In this document: positions 47,790 to 56,206 of the stretch, piece after piece
How the letters are laid out: every line of letters starts with the position of its first letter
Numbering within the stretch: the stretch's first letter is position 1
Source: Clostridia bacterium
GTDB taxonomy: Bacteria; Bacillota_A; Clostridia; Lachnospirales; Cellulosilyticaceae
Reading direction: 5' to 3'
Assembly: GCA_029239935.1 (NCBI GenBank)
Contig: JARBTY010000001.1
Location: 1 to 64,000 of the forward strand
Length of the DNA: 64,000 bases
The notes under the pieces: generated by a model
The model's database searches: none
What the model was told of the DNA's origin: nothing
What the model saw: the letters and a program-made list of their open reading frames with translations, nothing else
Position numbers and translations under genes: made by a program

Positions 47790-48728
47790 ATGACCTTAAT
47801 TTCGGATTTAAAAGCGCAGGAGAACATTAAAGGACAATATTTATGTAAATTTAAACAAATATTAAAAAATAAAAATGGTAAAGACTATTGCAGTGTCAGA
47901 TTGCAGGATCATACAGGAAGTATTGATGGGAAGATATGGTCTCTTCATAGTGGCATTTCCCCTTTTGAGGTAGATGATATAGTAGAAATAGAAGGGGAAG
48001 TTCTTTTGTATCAAGAAAATCTTCAGCTAAGCATTAACAAGCTCAAAAAAGCAGAAGAAGCAGAATATGATTTAAGAAGATTTATTCCACATACTTTAAA
48101 AGATGTAGAAGTTCTTGAAACAGAACTTTTTTCGTTTATAGATAGCATTACACATCCTCACATTAAGACGTTATTAGAAGATATATTTTATGATGAGGGG
48201 ATTTACAAAGAATTTTTAATCCATAGTGCAGCTAAGAGTGTGCATCATGCATATTTAAGCGGTTTATTGGAGCATACTGTAACGGTTGCTAAACTAGGGC
48301 TTAATATGGCCTCTCTTTACGAGGGCGTGAATAAAGATTTAGTCGTTGCGGGGTGTCTCCTGCACGATATCGGTAAGCTTTATGAATTAGCAAACTTCCC
48401 TAAAAATGACTACTCAGATGAAGGACAGCTTATAGGGCACATTGTAATAGGCTCAGAACTAGTACATGACAGAGCCAGCAGGATAGCTGATTTTCCTAAA
48501 GAATTAGAAATGCTTATCAAGCATGTTATACTTTCGCATCATGGGGAATACGAGTATGCTTCTCCAAAACGACCCAAATGTATAGAAGCTATGATTGTTC
48601 ATTTAGCTGACTATACAGATTCGAAGCTCAAAATGCTTGAAGAAATGATACAGGCAGCACCTCATGATGAGCTATACGCTGGTTATAACAAAATACTAAA
48701 TAGAAATATCAGAAAAGTTAAGCTATGA
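47790..48728 (+). CDS. yhaM: 3'-5' exoribonuclease, YhaM family
   Basis: A 312-aa metal-dependent RNase that trims RNA from the 3' end. An N-terminal OB fold (about 10-95, RLQDHTGSIDGKIW) is joined to an HD phosphohydrolase domain (about 125-300) with HHAYLSGLLEHT, CLLHDIGKLYEL and HVILSHHGEYEYASPK. Length is typical. Its stop overlaps the start of the next gene in ATGA, so it heads a tightly coupled operon of five genes reaching rlmD. GGGAGCG precedes the ATG. Confidence 0.92.
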   Translation: MTLISDLKAQENIKGQYLCKFKQILKNKNGKDYCSVRLQDHTGSIDGKIWSLHSGISPFEVDDIVEIEGEVLLYQENLQLSINKLKKAEEAEYDLRRFIPHTLKDVEVLETELFSFIDSITHPHIKTLLEDIFYDEGIYKEFLIHSAAKSVHHAYLSGLLEHTVTVAKLGLNMASLYEGVNKDLVVAGCLLHDIGKLYELANFPKNDYSDEGQLIGHIVIGSELVHDRASRIADFPKELEMLIKHVILSHHGEYEYASPKRPKCIEAMIVHLADYTDSKLKMLEEMIQAAPHDELYAGYNKILNRNIRKVKL

Positions 48729-49003
48729 AAAATGATAGTAAAAAAATATCGGCAAATGAAATCAACCGCTTTCTTTATTGTCCTTATCAATGGTATTATA
48801 CAAGATATTATGGAAGTAAAGCTCTTAATGAAAGCTATAAAGCCTTGGATATACAAACAAGCAAATATGAATCAAATTTTATAAAGGGGCAGAGGTTTCA
48901 TCGTCATTATTACAGAAGCTATCGGTTTAAAAGAATATTACAAGGGCTTCTTATTCTTTTAGCTATTGGCTTTTTAAGCTGGTTGGTGATAAGGTGGATA
49001 TAG
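48725..49003 (+). CDS. N-terminal half of a split Cas4-like nuclease, membrane-anchored
   Basis: A 92-aa protein starting with SANEINRFLYCPYQWYY (residues 9-25). This is the N-terminal signature of Cas4/RecB-type PD-(D/E)XK nucleases, where the Cys (Cys19) is the first ligand of the iron-sulfur cluster. A basic stretch (residues 54-70, KGQRFHRHYYRSYRFKR) precedes a C-terminal TM helix (about 71-91). The nuclease core is absent here but is encoded by the next gene, which overlaps by 10 nt in another frame. It starts inside yhaM with a 4-nt overlap. I infer two polypeptides that assemble in the membrane; a single-base frameshift in one two-TM gene is the alternative. Confidence 0.7.
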   Translation: MKNDSKKISANEINRFLYCPYQWYYTRYYGSKALNESYKALDIQTSKYESNFIKGQRFHRHYYRSYRFKRILQGLLILLAIGFLSWLVIRWI

Positions 49004-49533
49004 TTATACAAATAGGTATTATAGTTGTTATTATAGGCGTATTAGGAGCTAGTTTTAGGCCCAAATATAGAATTAAAAACAAAAGAGAGCTAGGCGTAAA
49101 ATATGCCTCACCTATTTATTCAGATGAGAAAGGGACTAAGCTTCTTGTGGCGCCTAAGCAGCAACTTCAAGGTAAGCCGGACTATATTTTTCAAACATGG
49201 TTTTTGAAAAAATATATACCTCTTGAAATAAAAAGCGGTATATTAAAAGAAGATGAGCCTCATTCTGGAGATGTTTATCAGTTAGCAGCTTACTTTCTTA
49301 TTATAGAAGAGCTTTATGGTAAAAGACCACCTTATGGTAAACTGGTTTATGCGAATAAAACCTTTATCATTAAAAACACTTATAAGATAAGAAAGCAGCT
49401 TAAATACATTTTAACAGAGATGAGAAATATGTTAGAGGGGAAGGGCAGTCTGCAGGCAGAGCCTTCTTTTATCAAATGCAAGCACTGTGTTTGTAAAATG
49501 ACAGTATGCGAATTTAACAAAGGGGAATACTAA
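48994..49533 (+). CDS. C-terminal half of a split Cas4-like PD-(D/E)XK nuclease
   Basis: A 179-aa protein with an N-terminal TM helix (about 3-20) and a nuclease core: GKPDY (Asp63), PLEIKSG (Glu78, Lys80) and the Cas4/RecB QxxxY-type motif YQLAAY (Gln96, Tyr100). The C-terminus has Cys162, Cys165, Cys167 and Cys172, where Cas4 proteins place the last three cluster cysteines. The N-terminal cluster Cys is missing and sits in the upstream gene. GTG start at 48994, overlapping that gene by 10 nt with AAGG upstream. No cas genes or CRISPR array are near, so the role is probably DNA repair or processing at the membrane (inference). Confidence 0.75.
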   Translation: MDIVIQIGIIVVIIGVLGASFRPKYRIKNKRELGVKYASPIYSDEKGTKLLVAPKQQLQGKPDYIFQTWFLKKYIPLEIKSGILKEDEPHSGDVYQLAAYFLIIEELYGKRPPYGKLVYANKTFIIKNTYKIRKQLKYILTEMRNMLEGKGSLQAEPSFIKCKHCVCKMTVCEFNKGEY

Positions 49534-49534
49534 A

Positions 49535-49696
49535 ATGAAAAAAGAAAATGAACCTAAAAAAAGCTCACCGCTTTTAGAGCGTTACATTCAAAGAAGTATG
49601 ATGGATAAAATGCAGCAGTTTGATGAAAGATCCCTGGCGGAGGCTATCAAATCACTGCTCTTGCAAAGTAAAGAGGATCCGAAAAATTTAAATTAG
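49535..49696 (+). CDS. Small 53-aa protein between nuclease and rlmD
   Basis: An ATG with AAGGGGAA upstream, one base after the nuclease stop, opens 53 codons. The product is charged and probably helical (SPLLERYIQRSMMDKMQQ, then DERSLAEAIKSLLL) with no cysteine or TM segment. Its stop is 9 bp before rlmD. Tight spacing on both sides supports translation. I do not recognise a family. Confidence 0.6.
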   Translation: MKKENEPKKSSPLLERYIQRSMMDKMQQFDERSLAEAIKSLLLQSKEDPKNLN

Positions 49697-49705
49697 GAGT
49701 AAAAC

Positions 49706-51082
49706 ATGGAAATACCTATTAAGAAAAATGACCATTTTGAAATGGAAATTATTGATATTGGAGCAGATGGAGAAGGCATAGGCAAAATTAATGATTTCAT
49801 AGTATTTGTGCCTCTGGCTGTAGTAGGAGACGTAGTAGAAGTTGAGGTTACCAAAACTAAGCGAAATTTTGGTTATGGAAAAATCATACGTATGATTACG
49901 CCGTCTGCCTTTCGTGAGGTTCCTAAATGTGAAGCTGCAAGTAGGTGCGGTGGCTGCCAGATTCAGCATATTGCTTATCCTGAGCAGCTTAAGTGGAAAA
50001 CTAAAAAAGTAAAAGAAGCATTAAGACGTATAGGCGGGCTGGGAGATATAGAGGTTGCAGATACGATAGGCATGGAGAGCCCTTTTAACTATCGTAATAA
50101 AGCCCAATATCCCATTCGTAAGGAAGATGGAGAACTTAAAATAGGCTTTTTTGCTCAAAGAAGCTATCGTATCATTACATCAGAAGGCTGTGTGATCCAA
50201 GATGTCAGAAATGAGCAGATTATAGAGCTTGTCAGAGCTTTTCTTACTAAATATAATATCTCTATTTACAATGATGAAACACACGAAGGACTTGTTAGAC
50301 AGTTACTCATTAAAACGGCCTATTATACTAAAGAGGTAATGGTATGTCTTGTGATTAACGGCAATACCCTCACCCATCAAGAAAAGCTTATCGAACTATT
50401 ACAGGAAGTAGAAGGGTTAACGAGTATTGTTCTTAATCATAATACTGATAAAATGAATGCTGCCATAAGTACCAGCACCACAGTCATTTATGGAAAAGAT
50501 TATATTGTAGATAAGATAGGAGACCTCAAATTTAAAATATCTCCTGTATCTTTTTTTCAGGTTAATCCTATTCAAACAAAAATATTATATGATAAAGTAC
50601 TGGAGTTCGCTCAGCTCACAGGTACAGAGACCCTGTGGGATGCCTACTGCGGTATAGGGACCATTTCTTTGTTTCTCGCTGAGAAAGCTAAAATGGTGTA
50701 CGGAGTAGAAGTTGTGTCAGAAGCTATAGAAAATGCTAAGGCTAATGCAGAGCTTAACGGTATTCAAAGTATTGAATTTTATACAGGCAAAGCAGAAGAC
50801 ATCATCCCTAAAATGTATGAGGAAGGGGTAAGAGCAGACATCATTGTAGTGGACCCTCCAAGAAAAGGCTGTGATGCCAAATTACTTGAAACAATATCAG
50901 ATATGAACCCCAGCAAAATTATCTATGTATCCTGCGACCCAGCTACATTAGCTAGAGATGTTGCGTATCTTACGCAAAATGGCTACAAAGCAGATAAAGT
51001 ACAGCCTGTAGATATGTTTCCACATACGGTACATGTTGAGACAGTGGTTTTGATGTCACAGAAAGATAGCTGGAAAGGCTAG
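49706..51082 (+). CDS. rlmD: 23S rRNA (uracil-5-)-methyltransferase, RlmD/RlmCD family
   Basis: A 458-aa SAM-dependent enzyme that methylates C5 of a uridine in 23S rRNA. An N-terminal TRAM domain (about 8-62, DIGADGEGIGKI) is followed by a 4Fe-4S site (CEAASRCGGCQ, about 73-84), a central domain, and the catalytic Rossmann fold with WDAYCGIGTISLFLA, VDPPRKGCD and the nucleophile Cys in YVSCDPATLARDV. ATG 49706 with AGGAG upstream. End of the yhaM operon; a terminator follows. Confidence 0.94.
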   Translation: MEIPIKKNDHFEMEIIDIGADGEGIGKINDFIVFVPLAVVGDVVEVEVTKTKRNFGYGKIIRMITPSAFREVPKCEAASRCGGCQIQHIAYPEQLKWKTKKVKEALRRIGGLGDIEVADTIGMESPFNYRNKAQYPIRKEDGELKIGFFAQRSYRIITSEGCVIQDVRNEQIIELVRAFLTKYNISIYNDETHEGLVRQLLIKTAYYTKEVMVCLVINGNTLTHQEKLIELLQEVEGLTSIVLNHNTDKMNAAISTSTTVIYGKDYIVDKIGDLKFKISPVSFFQVNPIQTKILYDKVLEFAQLTGTETLWDAYCGIGTISLFLAEKAKMVYGVEVVSEAIENAKANAELNGIQSIEFYTGKAEDIIPKMYEEGVRADIIVVDPPRKGCDAKLLETISDMNPSKIIYVSCDPATLARDVAYLTQNGYKADKVQPVDMFPHTVHVETVVLMSQKDSWKG

Positions 51083-51288: not shown

Positions 51289-51441
51289 ATGGACGATAAT
51301 ACTCCAAAGGATTCCCAAAAGCCGACTGATGGCAGACTGAAATCCCAACGAAAAAAACTTAAATCTACAGCCGAACTACAGATTGCTATGATATCTTTTT
51401 TAGGGAGGGATATTTATGGACATACGAATCTTGCTTGTTGA
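51289..51441 (+). CDS. Small 50-aa ORF leading the vanRS-like operon
   Basis: ATG 51289 follows GGGAGGA and opens 50 codons, ending 26 nt inside the response regulator gene. The product is polar and rich in Lys, Ser and Asp (DDNTPKDSQKPTDGRLK at its start), with no recognisable domain. Its promoter, ribosome site and overlap suggest a translated leader coupled to the regulator gene. VanG-type clusters have a small regulator, VanU, in this position, but this sequence does not show an HTH like VanU. Confidence 0.4.
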   Translation: MDDNTPKDSQKPTDGRLKSQRKKLKSTAELQIAMISFLGRDIYGHTNLAC

Positions 51442-52081
51442 GGATGATGAGCATATATGTAATACAGTCAAAGCTTTTTTATCTGAAGCTGGATATAAGG
51501 TGGATACTTGCTTAGATGGCGATAAAGCACACGCCAAATTTTACGATAACACTTATCACCTTGTCATTCTCGACATTATGCTGCCTGGCATGAGTGGGCA
51601 TGAACTATTGCGGGAGTTCCGTAAGCTGAACAATACGCCTATTCTGATGATGACCGCGCTTTCCGATGATGAAAGTCAAATCAAGGCTTTTGAAGCAGAA
51701 GCAGATGATTATGTGACGAAGCCGTTCAAGATTCAGCTTCTGATAAAACGTGTGGAAGCCTTACTACGGCGAAGTGGTATGCTCGCAAAGGAAGTCTGCT
51801 GTGACAAGCTGACGCTTATGCTGGAAGATTTCAAGGCGGTTTATGATAACGTGGAATTAGCTTTGACACTTAAAGAATTCGAAATCCTTTTGCTATTGGT
51901 TCAGAATAGGGGGAGAACGTTATCTCATGAAATCATCTTATCCCGCGTGTGGGGATATGAATTTGACGGTGACGGCAGTACCGTGCATACTCACATTAAA
52001 AATTTGCGGGCGAAACTGCCGGAAAACATCATCAAAACAGTACGGGGAGTGGGCTACCGATTGGAGGAAGAAACCCAATGA
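51416..52081 (+). CDS. VanR-like response regulator (OmpR family)
   Basis: A 221-aa regulator. Receiver: LVEDDEHICNTV, Asp53 in VILDIMLPGMSGHE, MMTALSD and VTKPFKIQLL (conserved Lys). Winged helix (about 125-221): LTLKEFEILLLLVQNRGRTLS and VHTHIKNLRAKL ... VRGVGYRLEE. Close in pattern to VanR of VanG-type and related clusters. AGGGAGGG precedes ATG. It overlaps the kinase gene in ATGA. Four 11-bp repeats in front of vanY are its likely target. Base composition is richer in GC than in the neighbouring operons, suggesting transfer. Confidence 0.9.
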   Translation: MDIRILLVEDDEHICNTVKAFLSEAGYKVDTCLDGDKAHAKFYDNTYHLVILDIMLPGMSGHELLREFRKLNNTPILMMTALSDDESQIKAFEAEADDYVTKPFKIQLLIKRVEALLRRSGMLAKEVCCDKLTLMLEDFKAVYDNVELALTLKEFEILLLLVQNRGRTLSHEIILSRVWGYEFDGDGSTVHTHIKNLRAKLPENIIKTVRGVGYRLEEETQ

Positions 52082-53412
52082 AAAATCGTGGGATTTTTAT
52101 TAAGGTATTTACTTATACGATAATCTCTATATTGCTACTTGTCGGCGTGACGGCGGCGCTATTTTCTCAACAGTTTGTGTCATTCTACAGAACGACGCAG
52201 AACAGGCAGATAATAGCTTCATATCGGCCTTTGGTGGAACGGATTCAGAGAAACAATTACAGCGACATTGCTGAACTAGCGCAGCGCTTTTACGAGAACA
52301 ACCAGTCTTTTGAATTCTATATAGCAGATAAAGACGGCAGCTCGATATTCGCCACACCAAACGCCGACACATCGGGCAGTTTTGATGGCGATTTTTACTT
52401 TGTTGTGCATAACGATAAGAACTTTTCCATCATTGCCCAAAGCAGGACGGGTTTAGAATCGTTTTATCGTGATTTAATCGTTCGGGCAATTGCCGTGTTT
52501 GCAGTAATGCTTGTGCTCTGTCTCTCCTGCGCTTATGTCTTTGCGCAGCAGATGACAAAACCAATCAAGCGCCTCGTGGACAGTGCCAGGAGGATGGCCA
52601 ATCTCGAAGACGTTTCACCCATGCCGGAGCGTAAAGATGAGCTTGGTATATTAGCCCACGACATTCACTCCATGTATGTCAAGATAAAAGAAACCATCTC
52701 AAGATTGGAGGACGAAATCCTGCGGGAGCGCGAGCTGGAGGAAACACAGAGATATTTCTTCTCGGCGGCGTCCCATGAACTGAAAACGCCTATTGCGGCT
52801 ACAAGTGTTTTGTTGGAGGGAATGCTTGAAAATGTAGGTGATTACAAAGACCATCCCAAATATCTGCGTGAATGCATGAAGATGATGGACGCACAGAGCA
52901 GAATAATTTCTGAGATACTGGAGATTGTTAAACTGAATGATGGAAAAATCGCACCCATTCTTGAAAAACTGGACATCAAGAAAACCATTGCTGACATGTT
53001 GCCTAATTTTCAGGCTTTATCTGAGGCAAACGGGCAGCGTATTGCTATGGATATTCCTGACAAGCAGTACTGCCTTGCCGACTACAAAATGCTGACAAAG
53101 GCACTTTCTAACATTATATTGAACGCCGTGCAGAATACGCCCAAAGGGGGTGAGATTCGGATATGGAGCGAGTCTGTCTCAGGCCAATATCGCCTTTGTG
53201 TACTAAACAAAAGGGTGAAGATTGACGATACTGTTCTGCCGAAGCTATTTGAGCCATTCTACCGCGTGGATAAGGCGCGGAGCAGAAAAAGCGGACGGAG
53301 CGGCTTGGGATTAACTATTGTCCAGAAAACACTGGAAGCGATGCACATTGAGTTTGCTTTAGAAAACACCTCGAATGGAGTTCTGTTTTGGATGGACTTG
53401 CCTAAGGCATAA
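52078..53412 (+). CDS. VanS-like sensor histidine kinase
   Basis: A 444-aa membrane kinase. TM1 about 10-30, a short extracellular loop of about 110 residues, TM2 about 140-160, HAMP (QMTKPIKRLVDSARRMANL), HisKA with His233 in AASHELKTPIAAT, and HATPase_c with NIILNAVQNTPKG, LFEPFYRVDKARS and GRSGLGLTIVQKT. This ending is typical of VanS-like kinases. It presumably controls the VanR-like regulator encoded 4 nt overlapping upstream. The signal may be a glycopeptide or another cell-wall antibiotic (inference). Confidence 0.9.
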   Translation: MKNRGIFIKVFTYTIISILLLVGVTAALFSQQFVSFYRTTQNRQIIASYRPLVERIQRNNYSDIAELAQRFYENNQSFEFYIADKDGSSIFATPNADTSGSFDGDFYFVVHNDKNFSIIAQSRTGLESFYRDLIVRAIAVFAVMLVLCLSCAYVFAQQMTKPIKRLVDSARRMANLEDVSPMPERKDELGILAHDIHSMYVKIKETISRLEDEILRERELEETQRYFFSAASHELKTPIAATSVLLEGMLENVGDYKDHPKYLRECMKMMDAQSRIISEILEIVKLNDGKIAPILEKLDIKKTIADMLPNFQALSEANGQRIAMDIPDKQYCLADYKMLTKALSNIILNAVQNTPKGGEIRIWSESVSGQYRLCVLNKRVKIDDTVLPKLFEPFYRVDKARSRKSGRSGLGLTIVQKTLEAMHIEFALENTSNGVLFWMDLPKA

Positions 53413-53435
53413 TGAGCTATAAGGAGAAAAATACA

Positions 53436-53969
53436 ATGAAACAAGACAAACAATACACAATTACAATCATATTATTCTTAATATATATATTGCTATTGAC
53501 AGGAGTCATTCTTTTTAAGCTGCCATTTTATTCTGCTGAGATATCAGACGGAATACGAGTAATCAACCTGATTCCGCTTAAGGGGTCATTGGATCAAAAC
53601 GGCATTATTGATTCAAGAGAGATTATTCAAAACATATTTATTTTTATACCGTTGGGCATCTATATACACATGCTAAAAAGCGAATGGCCTTTTATGAAAA
53701 AAACTTTCGCAGTCACTGGTTTAACCTTATCGTTTGAAGTTATACAATTTATTTTTACAATGGGAAGAACCGATATAACCGACATACTTGGCAACACGCT
53801 TGGAGGGATAATCGGCATCGGTATTTATGCTATATTATTAAATATTCTCAAAAGCAGGAGAGTTAAAATTGTAAATATGCTTGCTTTGGTAGTAACGATT
53901 TGCGTAGTATTGCGTTTTGCCCATCTGTTTTATCTCAGTCATTTTGTCATGAGGCGTCTGCACCGCTGA
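53436..53969 (+). CDS. VanZ-family membrane protein
   Basis: A 177-aa protein with four to five predicted TM helices and the VanZ-like pattern: INLIPLKGS (about 44-52), SREIIQNIFIFIPLGIYIHML, LSFEVIQFIFTMGRTDITDILGNTLGGIIG. VanZ gives low-level teicoplanin resistance in Tn1546; many homologues have unknown roles. ATG 53436 is chosen, with AAGGAG upstream; an in-frame ATG at 53412 overlaps the kinase stop and has no site. A strong terminator follows, separating it from vanY. Confidence 0.88.
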   Translation: MKQDKQYTITIILFLIYILLLTGVILFKLPFYSAEISDGIRVINLIPLKGSLDQNGIIDSREIIQNIFIFIPLGIYIHMLKSEWPFMKKTFAVTGLTLSFEVIQFIFTMGRTDITDILGNTLGGIIGIGIYAILLNILKSRRVKIVNMLALVVTICVVLRFAHLFYLSHFVMRRLHR

Positions 53970-53996
53970 TGTAAGCAATCATACTTTATCACCTTT

Positions 53997-54026
53997 ACCG
54001 ACAGGGTTATGCCTGTCGGTTTTTTT
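53997..54026 (+). terminator. Terminator between vanZ-like and vanY-like genes
   Basis: ACCGACAGG (53997-54005) pairs with CCTGTCGGT (54012-54020), followed by six T residues. Confidence 0.9.
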
Positions 54027-54030
54027 GCCT

Positions 54031-54104
54031 CTACACACAAACTACAGACTGACTACAGGGGAAATACAGAGTGGTTTGTCATAATGGAAACCATAACATA
54101 CACT
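54031..54104 (+). promoter_or_regulatory. vanY-like promoter with four 11-bp direct repeats
   Basis: CTACA starts at 54031, 54042 and 54053 and ATACA at 54064, each exactly 11 bp apart. The array ends 7 bp before TTGTCA (54076-54081), which is 17 bp from TACACT (54099-54104). One repeat per helical turn directly upstream of -35 is the arrangement used by OmpR-family activators, so the VanR-like protein probably binds here. Confidence 0.75.
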
Positions 54105-54125
54105 CTAGACGAGGAGGTAACTATA

Positions 54126-54932
54126 TTGAAACGTAACCGTAAAGTCAATCGATTGAAACGCTTTATTTATATTGGAGAGATTCTTTTAGTATTATGCGTG
54201 TGGATGGTTTCTTTGGTGAGATATGCTGATTCGGAATGCGATATGAGCGTACCGAATGAGAGTGTGCAATCAAGAGATGAAGCGCTGACAGAGAGTCTCA
54301 CTGAGAGTGCATTGCCTACGTTACCTACGAGAGAACCACGTGAGAGCGCACTGCCTGCGAGCGAGTCATCAGCAAGCGTCACGTATACAAGCAAGTCATC
54401 GAAAGACGTTTTGCTTGTAAACACCGAAAATCCTCTGCCAGAAGATTTTCACCCTGAAAATCTTGTAAATCTTTATATTCAAAGAAATAAGCATTTTCAG
54501 TTGGCGAAAGCTGACATTGAAGTTTGTGAAACTGTTTTTGATTCAATGGAGGCAATGTTTGCAGCAGCACAGAGTGACAGTGTGAGTGGCTTCATTATTA
54601 CCAGCGGATATCGTTCGTATGAAGAACAAAAAGAGATTTACTCAAAAACCACAGACGGAACTGCGGCAAAACCTGGCACAAGTGAGCATGAAACCGGACT
54701 TGCCTTTGACGTGACAGCGATGGGTAATGAAAATTTTGAATTAACCCCACAGTTTGAGTGGCTCTCCAAGCATTGTGCAGAGTATGGGTTTGTTATCCGC
54801 TATCCGAAAGGCATGGAGGATGTGACGGGCTACCCGTATGAACCGTGGCATTATCGCTATGTAGGAGTACCATACGCAAAAGAGATTATGGATGAGAGTA
54901 TTACGTTGGAAGAATATCAGGAGCAACATTGA
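54126..54932 (+). CDS. VanY-like D-alanyl-D-alanine carboxypeptidase
   Basis: A 268-aa membrane-anchored zinc peptidase that trims terminal D-Ala from peptidoglycan precursors. A basic start, a TM helix (about 11-32), a Ser/Glu-rich repeat linker (SLTESAL, ALPASES), then the VanY domain (about 105-268) with SGYRSYEEQKEIY, the zinc ligands in GTSEHETGLAFDVT (His, Asp) and EPWHYRYVG (Glu, His). TTG 54126 is chosen because GAGGAGG lies 8 nt upstream; an ATG at 54009 lies in the terminator and ATG 54084 lies in the promoter spacer. Own inducible-type promoter. Confidence 0.9.
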   Translation: MKRNRKVNRLKRFIYIGEILLVLCVWMVSLVRYADSECDMSVPNESVQSRDEALTESLTESALPTLPTREPRESALPASESSASVTYTSKSSKDVLLVNTENPLPEDFHPENLVNLYIQRNKHFQLAKADIEVCETVFDSMEAMFAAAQSDSVSGFIITSGYRSYEEQKEIYSKTTDGTAAKPGTSEHETGLAFDVTAMGNENFELTPQFEWLSKHCAEYGFVIRYPKGMEDVTGYPYEPWHYRYVGVPYAKEIMDESITLEEYQEQH

Positions 54933-55161: not shown

Positions 55162-55175
55162 GAGAGGTGATTAAG

Positions 55176-55499
55176 TTGGAAAATATTACAGAAATGTTAA
55201 AGGGTGTACTAGAAGGCTGCGTCCTTGAAATCATAAGCCACGAGGAAACCTATGGTTACGAGATCACGCGACGGCTGAATGCCCTCGGATTTTCAGACGT
55301 TGTGGATGGGACAGTTTACACCATTTTGGTGCGGCTTGAGAAGAATAAACTCGTGAACATAGAAAAAAAACCATCCGATATGGGGCCACCGCGAAAGTTT
55401 TTTACGCTCAACAGCGCGGGGCGTGAGGAGCTGAGGAGGTTCTGGGAAAGATGGGAATTCGTATCATCAAAAATTAACGAGTTAAAGGAGAGGAAATAA
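55176..55499 (+). CDS. PadR family transcriptional regulator
   Basis: A 107-aa short PadR repressor consisting of the winged helix and a short C-terminal helix. Motifs: ENITEMLKGVLEGCVLEIISHEETYGYEITRRL (start to about 33; seen in two overlapping stretches), then VDGTVYTILVRLEKNKLV and PPRKFFTLNSAG. TTG 55176 is preferred because GGAGAGG lies 8 nt upstream and family members start at this point; GTG 55167 is an alternative. It overlaps the next gene by one base. The operators at 55112-55161 point to autoregulation. Confidence 0.9.
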   Translation: MENITEMLKGVLEGCVLEIISHEETYGYEITRRLNALGFSDVVDGTVYTILVRLEKNKLVNIEKKPSDMGPPRKFFTLNSAGREELRRFWERWEFVSSKINELKERK

Positions 55500-55846
55500 T
55501 GAATTTCTGGGAAAAAATCACAGGAAGCGACATGACTAAAGAATGGAAAACTTTTGAATCGCGAGCCAAAATGCTGCCGGATGATTATCAAGCCGCATGG
55601 GAAAATATTAATGCCAATCTTTGGCTGCACTCAGATTTCACCGGTCGCAACCTCATACCAATGCTTGACGGTGTGCTTGGACTGCTCGAAGAAACGGCTG
55701 CGGACGGTCAGAGTGTCCAAGAAGTTTTGGGTGACGATATCAAAGGCTTCTGTTTGGCGCTGGTCGGCGAAGAAGGGGCAAAGTCTTTTCGCGACAAGTG
55801 GCGGGAGCAACTTAACAATAATATCACTAAAAAATTAGGTAAATAG
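55499..55846 (+). CDS. DUF1048 family protein (first copy)
   Basis: A 115-aa protein with an N-terminal WEKITGSDMTKEWKTFESR, a central MLPDDYQAAWENI, and a GVLGLLEETAADGQSVQEVLGDDIKGFC helix pair, matching the DUF1048 family (all-alpha, no known activity). No TM helix or catalytic motif. Its ATG shares a base with the PadR stop. DUF1048 genes are usually found right after short PadR regulators, often in pairs, as here. The composition is richer in GC than the flanking genes. Confidence 0.85.
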   Translation: MNFWEKITGSDMTKEWKTFESRAKMLPDDYQAAWENINANLWLHSDFTGRNLIPMLDGVLGLLEETAADGQSVQEVLGDDIKGFCLALVGEEGAKSFRDKWREQLNNNITKKLGK

Positions 55847-55855
55847 GAGGATGAA

Positions 55856-56206
55856 ATGAGAATACAAGATATCATCGAAGGCAAAAAAGAGTGGCGAGCG
55901 CACATGGCGCGTGTCAAAGCGCTCCCGAAAGATTATCTGATTGTTTATAAAGAAATTCAAAAATACTTCTATAAGGTTGGCCCTGCTGAGCTAACCGACG
56001 GGATAGATTTACTCTCGGGAATTATCGATCTTTTTGAAGAGGGGGCGGCCTTGGGGAAAGGCGTGCTCGAAGTAACGGGCAGTGATGTAGCGGCTTTCTG
56101 CGACGAACTAATCAAAGATTCAAAAACTTACGCTGACATCTATCAAGAATCTGTTGGCCAAGAAGTTAACAAGGCAATAAAAAACGTTACTGAGAAGACA
56201 AAGTAA
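55856..56206 (+). CDS. DUF1048 family protein (second copy)
   Basis: A 116-aa paralogue of the preceding protein, with the same order of features: KKEWRAHMARVKALPKDY, then a DLLSGIIDLFEEGAALGKGVLEVTGSD segment and AAFCDELIKD. AGGAGG precedes the ATG. The two copies differ greatly in sequence, so they are old duplicates and may form a hetero-oligomer (inference). Confidence 0.85.
   Translation: MRIQDIIEGKKEWRAHMARVKALPKDYLIVYKEIQKYFYKVGPAELTDGIDLLSGIIDLFEEGAALGKGVLEVTGSDVAAFCDELIKDSKTYADIYQESVGQEVNKAIKNVTEKTK

Follow-up and report, generated by a model that had tools for sequence, protein, structure and literature searches.

In Fe-S (iron-sulfur) RecB-like nucleases such as AddB, Dna2, Exo5, and AdnA, the cluster joins an N-terminal cysteine to three C-terminal cysteines around the nuclease core. 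These enzymes are single polypeptides that also contain helicase or other domains, and they are not known to form membrane hairpins. The Cas4 proteins of CRISPR (clustered regularly interspaced short palindromic repeats) systems (TIGR00372/PF01930; structures 7mi4/7mi5, 8d3l/8d3q, 4ic1, and 4r5q) also consist of one chain and are usually encoded beside cas1. Solo-Cas4 proteins, encoded outside CRISPR loci, were reported to be monophyletic and to occur in most Thermoanaerobacteriales and in many Chloroflexi; their functions are still uncharacterized (Hudaiberdiev et al., 2017, PMC5704561). A Cas4-like nuclease of Synechococcus elongatus was reported to reduce how well RSF1010 replicons are transferred or maintained (PMC10653904). 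Here, we describe two overlapping genes of a Clostridia bacterium (Cellulosilyticaceae) that likely encode the halves of one membrane-anchored Cas4-like Fe-S nuclease, active upon assembly. The genes lie in a 64-kb window, which is the whole stretch of DNA analyzed (assembly GCA_029239935.1, contig JARBTY010000001.1, positions 1 to 64,000 of the forward strand).

A preliminary description of this locus had proposed a Cas4-like nuclease split between two overlapping genes. Both open reading frames (ORFs) are present, and they overlap by 10 nucleotides (nt) in differing reading frames (Table 1). A contig scan identified eight relatives, from Sporanaerobium, Cellulosilyticum, Epulopiscium, a Defluviitaleaceae bacterium, two Thermoanaerobacterium, and two uncultured Clostridia, each with a gene-1-like ORF immediately ahead of gene 2 (in two pieces in locus L007). 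These relatives and the genomes searched around two of them gave 53 loci in all. Twelve are identical protein repeats and five score below 100 bits, leaving 36 distinct loci plus the window. All 37 of these loci, at 100 bits or more, are split with gene 1 directly upstream. The five low-scoring loci (L014-L018) encode single-chain Cas4s, and their adjoining ORFs look Cas1/Cas2-like by eye. Conservation of the split was the test set for the two-chain interpretation, which passed it and which we judge supported. At the level of sequence, the split is thus a real two-gene form and not a broken gene.

The two genes also occur together. In the family of Sporanaerobium (L003, genome G001), gene 2 was found in 15 of 24 genomes, which are also the 15 that have gene 1; in the order of T. 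butyriciformans (L008, genome G003), both genes were found in the same 21 of 24 genomes.

The preliminary description had named conservation of the split with the same overlap as support for a real two-gene system. A 10-nt overlap recurs in five of the 36 other loci (L001, L002, L043, L048, and L052), but the length varies: possible overlaps are 4 nt (ATGA) in Thermoanaerobacterium-like loci and in most loci of that order, and 10, 13, 16, 22, or 25 nt in most others. Gene 2 lies in the -1 frame relative to gene 1 at 35 of 37 junctions, a regularity that would be consistent with a single protein made by programmed -1 frameshifting, the split being only apparent. We nevertheless consider this highly improbable. 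The two remaining loci use the other frame (L013, with a 17-nt overlap or a 34-nt gap depending on the start chosen, and L053, with the genes one base apart), and the 4-nt ATGA overlap is an ordinary coupling geometry. In addition, gene 2 in the window has a start codon of its own and a 6-nt Shine-Dalgarno match, the open frames overlap by merely 10 nt (L002) or 4 nt (L026), and no canonical slippery heptamer was seen by eye in the window.

Single proteins with two transmembrane helices in related genomes had been named as the result that would speak against a split. One metagenomic protein, P0241, fits that form, but all 37 loci are split. P0241 is the only long form among the matches listed from a single search (27 candidates), and others may exist. 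P0241 was aligned with 21 gene 2 rows and 4 gene 1 rows (a mixed alignment with many rows of both genes misaligned the halves and was unused). In a tree, P0241 falls beside a split row (support 91/77); a grouping of the split rows without P0241 is not rejected (approximately unbiased test, p-AU 0.183). When the tree is rooted on three single-chain Cas4s, the split rows and P0241 all fall on one side (95/97), with several long branches. Only 5 of 24 single-chain loci matched the gene 2 profile and entered the trees, and L098 and L102 were dropped from the later rooted tree.

Each chain was claimed to be membrane-anchored, and a strongly hydrophobic 17-residue stretch is indeed present in both (gene 1, approximately residues 73-89, mean Kyte-Doolittle hydropathy 2.3; gene 2, approximately residues 3-19, mean 2.89). 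We assessed conservation in the best 120 of 662 gene 1 homologues (E <= 0.001) and the best 120 of 541 gene 2 homologues; since these are the best-scoring sequences, conservation may be overstated. With a helix threshold of a 17-residue mean hydropathy >= 1.6, a C-terminal helix is found in 120/120 gene 1 homologues and an N-terminal helix in 113/120 gene 2 homologues. In the 15 residues that precede the helix and the 15 that follow it, mean net charge is +4.55 and +0.72 for gene 1 (n=120) and -0.47 and +3.32 for gene 2 (n=113). Membrane helices are oriented by the positive-inside rule, and under this rule the charge bias suggests that the soluble part of both chains is cytoplasmic. By comparison, five CRISPR Cas4s that were checked have no membrane helix (top 17-residue hydropathy 0.62-1.4).

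Several observations link the pair to the Cas4 family. First, the two chains divide Cas4 profiles between them. On the PADLOC Cas4 profile PDLC01447 (161 positions), gene 1 covers positions 1-48 (E 0.0029) and gene 2 positions 46-154 (E 5e-11); on the Cas4d profile PDLC02035 (196 positions), gene 1 covers 6-62 (E 1.5e-5) and gene 2 64-171 (E 3.7e-4). Because both chains tile a single family model, the match goes beyond chance. Gene 1 also weakly matches PDDEXK_1 (E 0.0013, below cut-off), and its search with TIGR00372 gave no match.

Second, the residues expected of such an enzyme are conserved. Those named in the preliminary description (Cys19 of gene 1; D63, E78, K80, Q96, Y100, C162, C165, C167, and C172 of gene 2) are all in place. 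Invariant residues among the 120 homologues are E12, N14, C19, W23, Y24, Y25, G55, and H59 in gene 1 and G60-D63, E78, K80, S81, Q96, Y100, Y119, N121, C162, and C172 in gene 2. Gene 2 therefore carries the catalytic D, E-x-K, and Q/Y residues of Cas4-like PD-(D/E)XK nucleases (120/120), and gene 1 the G-x3-H motif (120/120). The proposed set of four C-terminal cysteines holds for C162 and C172 (120/120 each) and C165 (119/120), but C167 is kept in only 114/120. One N-terminal and three C-terminal cysteines are present only when both chains are combined.

Third, the pair aligns with single-chain Cas4s, with which it has an N-terminal Cys and a C-terminal CxxC in common. Cys19 of gene 1 shares an alignment column with the N-terminal Cys of 16 single-chain Cas4s. 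These 16 (of 19 loci) had passed a filter on motifs (Cys before His, E/D-x-K, CxxC..C) that required such a Cys, so that the agreement in this column is partly by selection. His59 of gene 1, unmentioned in the preliminary description, occupies the column of a His in 11 of the 16 (D or Q in the other five). The D/E-x-K columns of I-B-like rows failed to line up in this alignment, and a stricter filter kept one row.

Finally, the predicted models of P0241 and gene 2 have the Cas4 fold, and AddB, Dna2, Exo5, and AdnA appear as fold matches. At the sequence level, the PDB gave no hit to P0241 with phmmer and no significant hit to the gene 1 profile.

These features suggest how the two proteins could work. 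Each half would be anchored to the cytoplasmic membrane through a single helix and would have a cytoplasmic soluble part. The gene 1 helix would exit the cell and the gene 2 helix would re-enter it, so that the two form a helical hairpin interrupted at the outer turn. The halves would jointly rebuild the Cas4 fold, an arrangement that we infer from the predicted model of P0241, a natural single-chain relative. Gene 1 would supply Cys19 and His59, and gene 2 would supply Asp63, Glu78-x-Lys80, Gln96, Tyr100, and Cys162/165/172. As neither chain alone has a complete cluster or active site, the enzyme should need assembly, and activity would appear only once assembled, aided by overlapping translation. 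Both the fold and the residues point to a DNA nuclease carrying an Fe-S cluster, two properties that the pair would have by analogy with its family.

Other observations weigh against this reading. Gene 2 matches TIGR00372 (cas4) with E 4.3e-15 but at 56 bits, under the curated cut-off of 65 bits, and its Pfam search returned no family at E<1. Seven of the 120 gene 2 relatives fall below the hydropathy limit (some are short and one is named 'partial'), and gene 2 of locus L006 is apparently without a membrane helix. In the predicted models, the C-terminal cysteine part has low confidence: averaged over 10 residues, it is 76, 59, 51, and 40 from residue 261 onward in P0241 and 61, 59, and 46 from residue 151 onward in gene 2. 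The turn and the second helix of P0241 are likewise at 57-61. The best structural match of gene 2 ends at residue 150. With a weak cysteine end in both models and a match that stops there, the models leave the cluster geometry unsupported.

Gene 1 is also frame-broken beside an intact gene 2 in L007 (3730-4001), its duplicate L020, and L036. Together with a broken copy on L133, these cases would fit a sequencing error or a decaying pseudogene. Such an origin of the split is extremely unlikely given 37 split loci of 37, catalytic residues kept in 120/120 homologues, and the ratio of nonsynonymous to synonymous differences (pN/pS). This ratio is 0.08-0.39 across 40 pairwise comparisons; synonymous sites are saturated in many of them, and four gene 1 slices had one or two additional upstream codons.

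The pair does not appear to belong to a CRISPR system. The 64-kb window contains no CRISPR-like array (scanned as exact 20-mers repeated at 44-110 nt spacing), in agreement with the preliminary description. The pair further differs from CRISPR-associated Cas4 (TIGR00372) in its score, in its two membrane chains in place of one, and in having no cas1/cas2 neighbors. We found cas1 in 21/21 split-bearing genomes of the T. butyriciformans order, as might be expected of an accessory nuclease serving CRISPR adaptation in trans, but in only 3/15 of those in the Sporanaerobium family. The pair is thus not tied to CRISPR. Moreover, PF01930 matches occur in 23/24 genomes of the T. butyriciformans order, and the strong ones compared (for example, G003:C40, G395:C3, and G416:C32) adjoin a cas1 match; those genomes thus own a single-chain Cas4. 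With no array in the window as well, we regard an accessory CRISPR role as very unlikely. In G394, a genome without the split pair, a PF01930 Cas4 match (G394:C53:6408-6884) lies within a 941-residue open frame.

Table 1. Coordinates of the gene pair, its predicted functional sites, and its neighbors in the window.
Feature	Coordinates	Strand	Remarks
Gene 1, putative N-terminal part of Cas4-like nuclease and terminal membrane helix	48725..49003	+	ATG to TAG, 92 amino acids
Gene 2, predicted membrane helix, then PD-(D/E)XK core and C-terminal cysteines	48994..49533	+	GTG to TAA, 179 amino acids
Gene 1 Cys19 codon, proposed N-terminal Fe-S ligand	48779..48781	+	Invariant, 120/120 homologues
Gene 1 His59 codon (G-x3-H), proposed active-site His	48899..48901	+	120/120
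Gene 1 predicted membrane helix, N-in	48941..48991	+	Hydropathy and flanking charge in 120 homologues
GGTGAT, Shine-Dalgarno-like site for gene 2	48985..48990	+	6-nt match
Gene 2 predicted membrane helix, C-in	49000..49050	+	Hydropathy and flanking charge in 113 homologues
Gene 2 Asp63 codon of GKPD	49180..49182	+	120/120 homologues
Gene 2 Glu78-x-Lys80 codons	49225..49233	+	120/120 homologues
Gene 2 Gln96 to Tyr100 codons	49279..49293	+	Q96 and Y100 each 120/120
Gene 2 C162, C165, C167, and C172 codons; proposed Fe-S ligands C162, C165, and C172	49477..49509	+	120, 119, 114, and 120 of 120
yhaM-like 3'-5' exoribonuclease gene, upstream neighbor	47790..48728	+	NF010007 E 8.5e-53, below cut-off; overlaps gene 1 by 4 nt
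53-amino-acid ORF, conserved neighbor	49535..49696	+	Between gene 2 and rlmD
rlmD (23S rRNA m5U1939 methyltransferase), downstream neighbor	49706..51082	+	TIGR00479 E 3.9e-147, above cut-off

The genes were described as locked between yhaM and rlmD. This holds for the window's relatives (yhaM in 7/7 and rlmD in 6/7 loci read) but not in Thermoanaerobacterales, where a PdaA-like gene follows in 6/6 loci (by eye; spore_pdaA, TIGR02884, above cut-off in both of the two tested). Six genomes of the Sporanaerobium family have yhaM without the pair. In one of them (L121) rlmD directly follows yhaM, and two (L122 and L127) retain the small ORF but have neither gene; in L126, L128, and L129, other genes follow yhaM, with neither rlmD nor the small ORF, and these loci are uninformative on the site. 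The 53-residue ORF itself is conserved in most window relatives read and has no family match. Elsewhere in the window, genes for a response regulator, a histidine kinase, a VanZ-like protein, and a VanY-type D-Ala-D-Ala carboxypeptidase are consecutive (51416-54932), and a PadR regulator gene precedes genes for a DUF1048 protein and, by eye, a second similar ORF (55167-56206).

The spread of the pair is narrow. We identified 2 strong cases among 391 genomes drawn from the class; gene 1 was found in 8 of 398 genomes sampled from the phylum, each of them a previously identified carrier of the pair. A plasmid protein search identified relatives on three plasmids of B. subtilis and on one from Paludisphaera borealis, and another search also yielded Singulisphaera acidiphila and Planctomyces sp. 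SH-PL62. The Planctomyces copy (L133) is broken and lies beside an IS701 transposase. The intact pairs that were read (L130 and L134, B. subtilis; L131, Paludisphaera; L132, Singulisphaera) have the same layout: a short ORF with the Cys, the His, and a C-terminal helix is followed by a second ORF with an N-terminal helix, D, E-x-K, and CxxC. Computed with a search space of 1000, gene 1 profile E-values are 2.7e-15 (L130), 1.1e-6 (L131), and 3.6e-4 (L132), against a best of 0.95 for 300 shuffled sequences; for gene 2, they are 1.9e-34, 1.1e-13, and 1.2e-9, against a best shuffle of 0.41. On the approximately 64-kb B. subtilis plasmids, the pair sits between a helicase gene (one small ORF apart) and an hfq-named gene, with thermonuclease and toprim genes nearby. 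On the Planctomycetota plasmids (L131/L135 and L132), it lies near DNA methylase and MobF relaxase genes; umuD and a gene for a Y-family polymerase are present on PALBO2 as well. Phage records contained no match to gene 2 of the window or of L130. A limited, pattern-based search of IMG/VR viral contigs gave 85, 6, 6, and 38 pattern matches, none encoding a relative.

The membrane location suggests DNA crossing or touching the membrane. Tentatively, and as the least certain part of our proposal, the enzyme may act on DNA at the membrane, for example on single-stranded DNA taken up in transformation or conjugation or on injected phage DNA. Two observations count against this function: the neighbors of the pair vary between lineages, and the presence of ComEC is non-discriminating (15/15 genomes with the pair, 7/9 without). 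The same two-chain membrane nuclease might instead serve the cell's own DNA in a housekeeping function, such as repair or clearing of ends at the membrane, perhaps in sporulation. Stable, apparently chromosomal synteny (with yhaM and rlmD in the window's relatives and the PdaA-like gene in Thermoanaerobacterales) and the lack of relatives in the viral searches favor such a role, and the PdaA-like synteny in particular keeps housekeeping or sporulation in play. Patchy presence (15/24 genomes of unstated completeness in the Sporanaerobium family, 2/391 in the class) and copies on plasmids with MobF relaxase, methylase, and, in one case, umuD and polymerase genes disfavor it, and we hold it to be possible though somewhat doubtful. 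A more speculative extension of the two-chain nuclease is that an Fe-S cluster and active site shared by two polypeptides could let membrane assembly switch on cutting at DNA entry, as a barrier used by chromosomes and plasmids in at least two phyla.

The Thermoanaerobacteriales solo-Cas4 (PMC5704561) belongs to the Cas4 family, occurs in the same order, and lies outside CRISPR loci; it is probably gene 2 of this pair. All of its members are said to have four conserved cysteines; the accessible text of that article speaks of neither a partner gene nor anchoring in the membrane, 'split' and 'truncat' do not occur, and the lone 'membrane' is part of a neighbor gene's name. The S. elongatus nuclease, also outside CRISPR, is a precedent in kind only, and the accessible part of its report mentions no membrane or split form (PMC10653904). 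The claim that such an enzyme is undescribed calls for caution. Among the matches listed from an open-licence PMC search, with subscription papers and preprints outside its scope, none concerned a split or membrane-bound Cas4, but gene 2 relatives are already named CRISPR-associated protein Cas4 in databases, and solo-Cas4 has been reported (PMC5704561).

The Cas4 structures named here are all single chains. A conserved two-half form would put such a nuclease at the membrane, where assembly would be needed to complete its cluster and active site. The proteins entered as 'Cas4' in databases for these bacteria would then be only part of an enzyme, and the split pair offers a testable handle on 'solo Cas4' genes.
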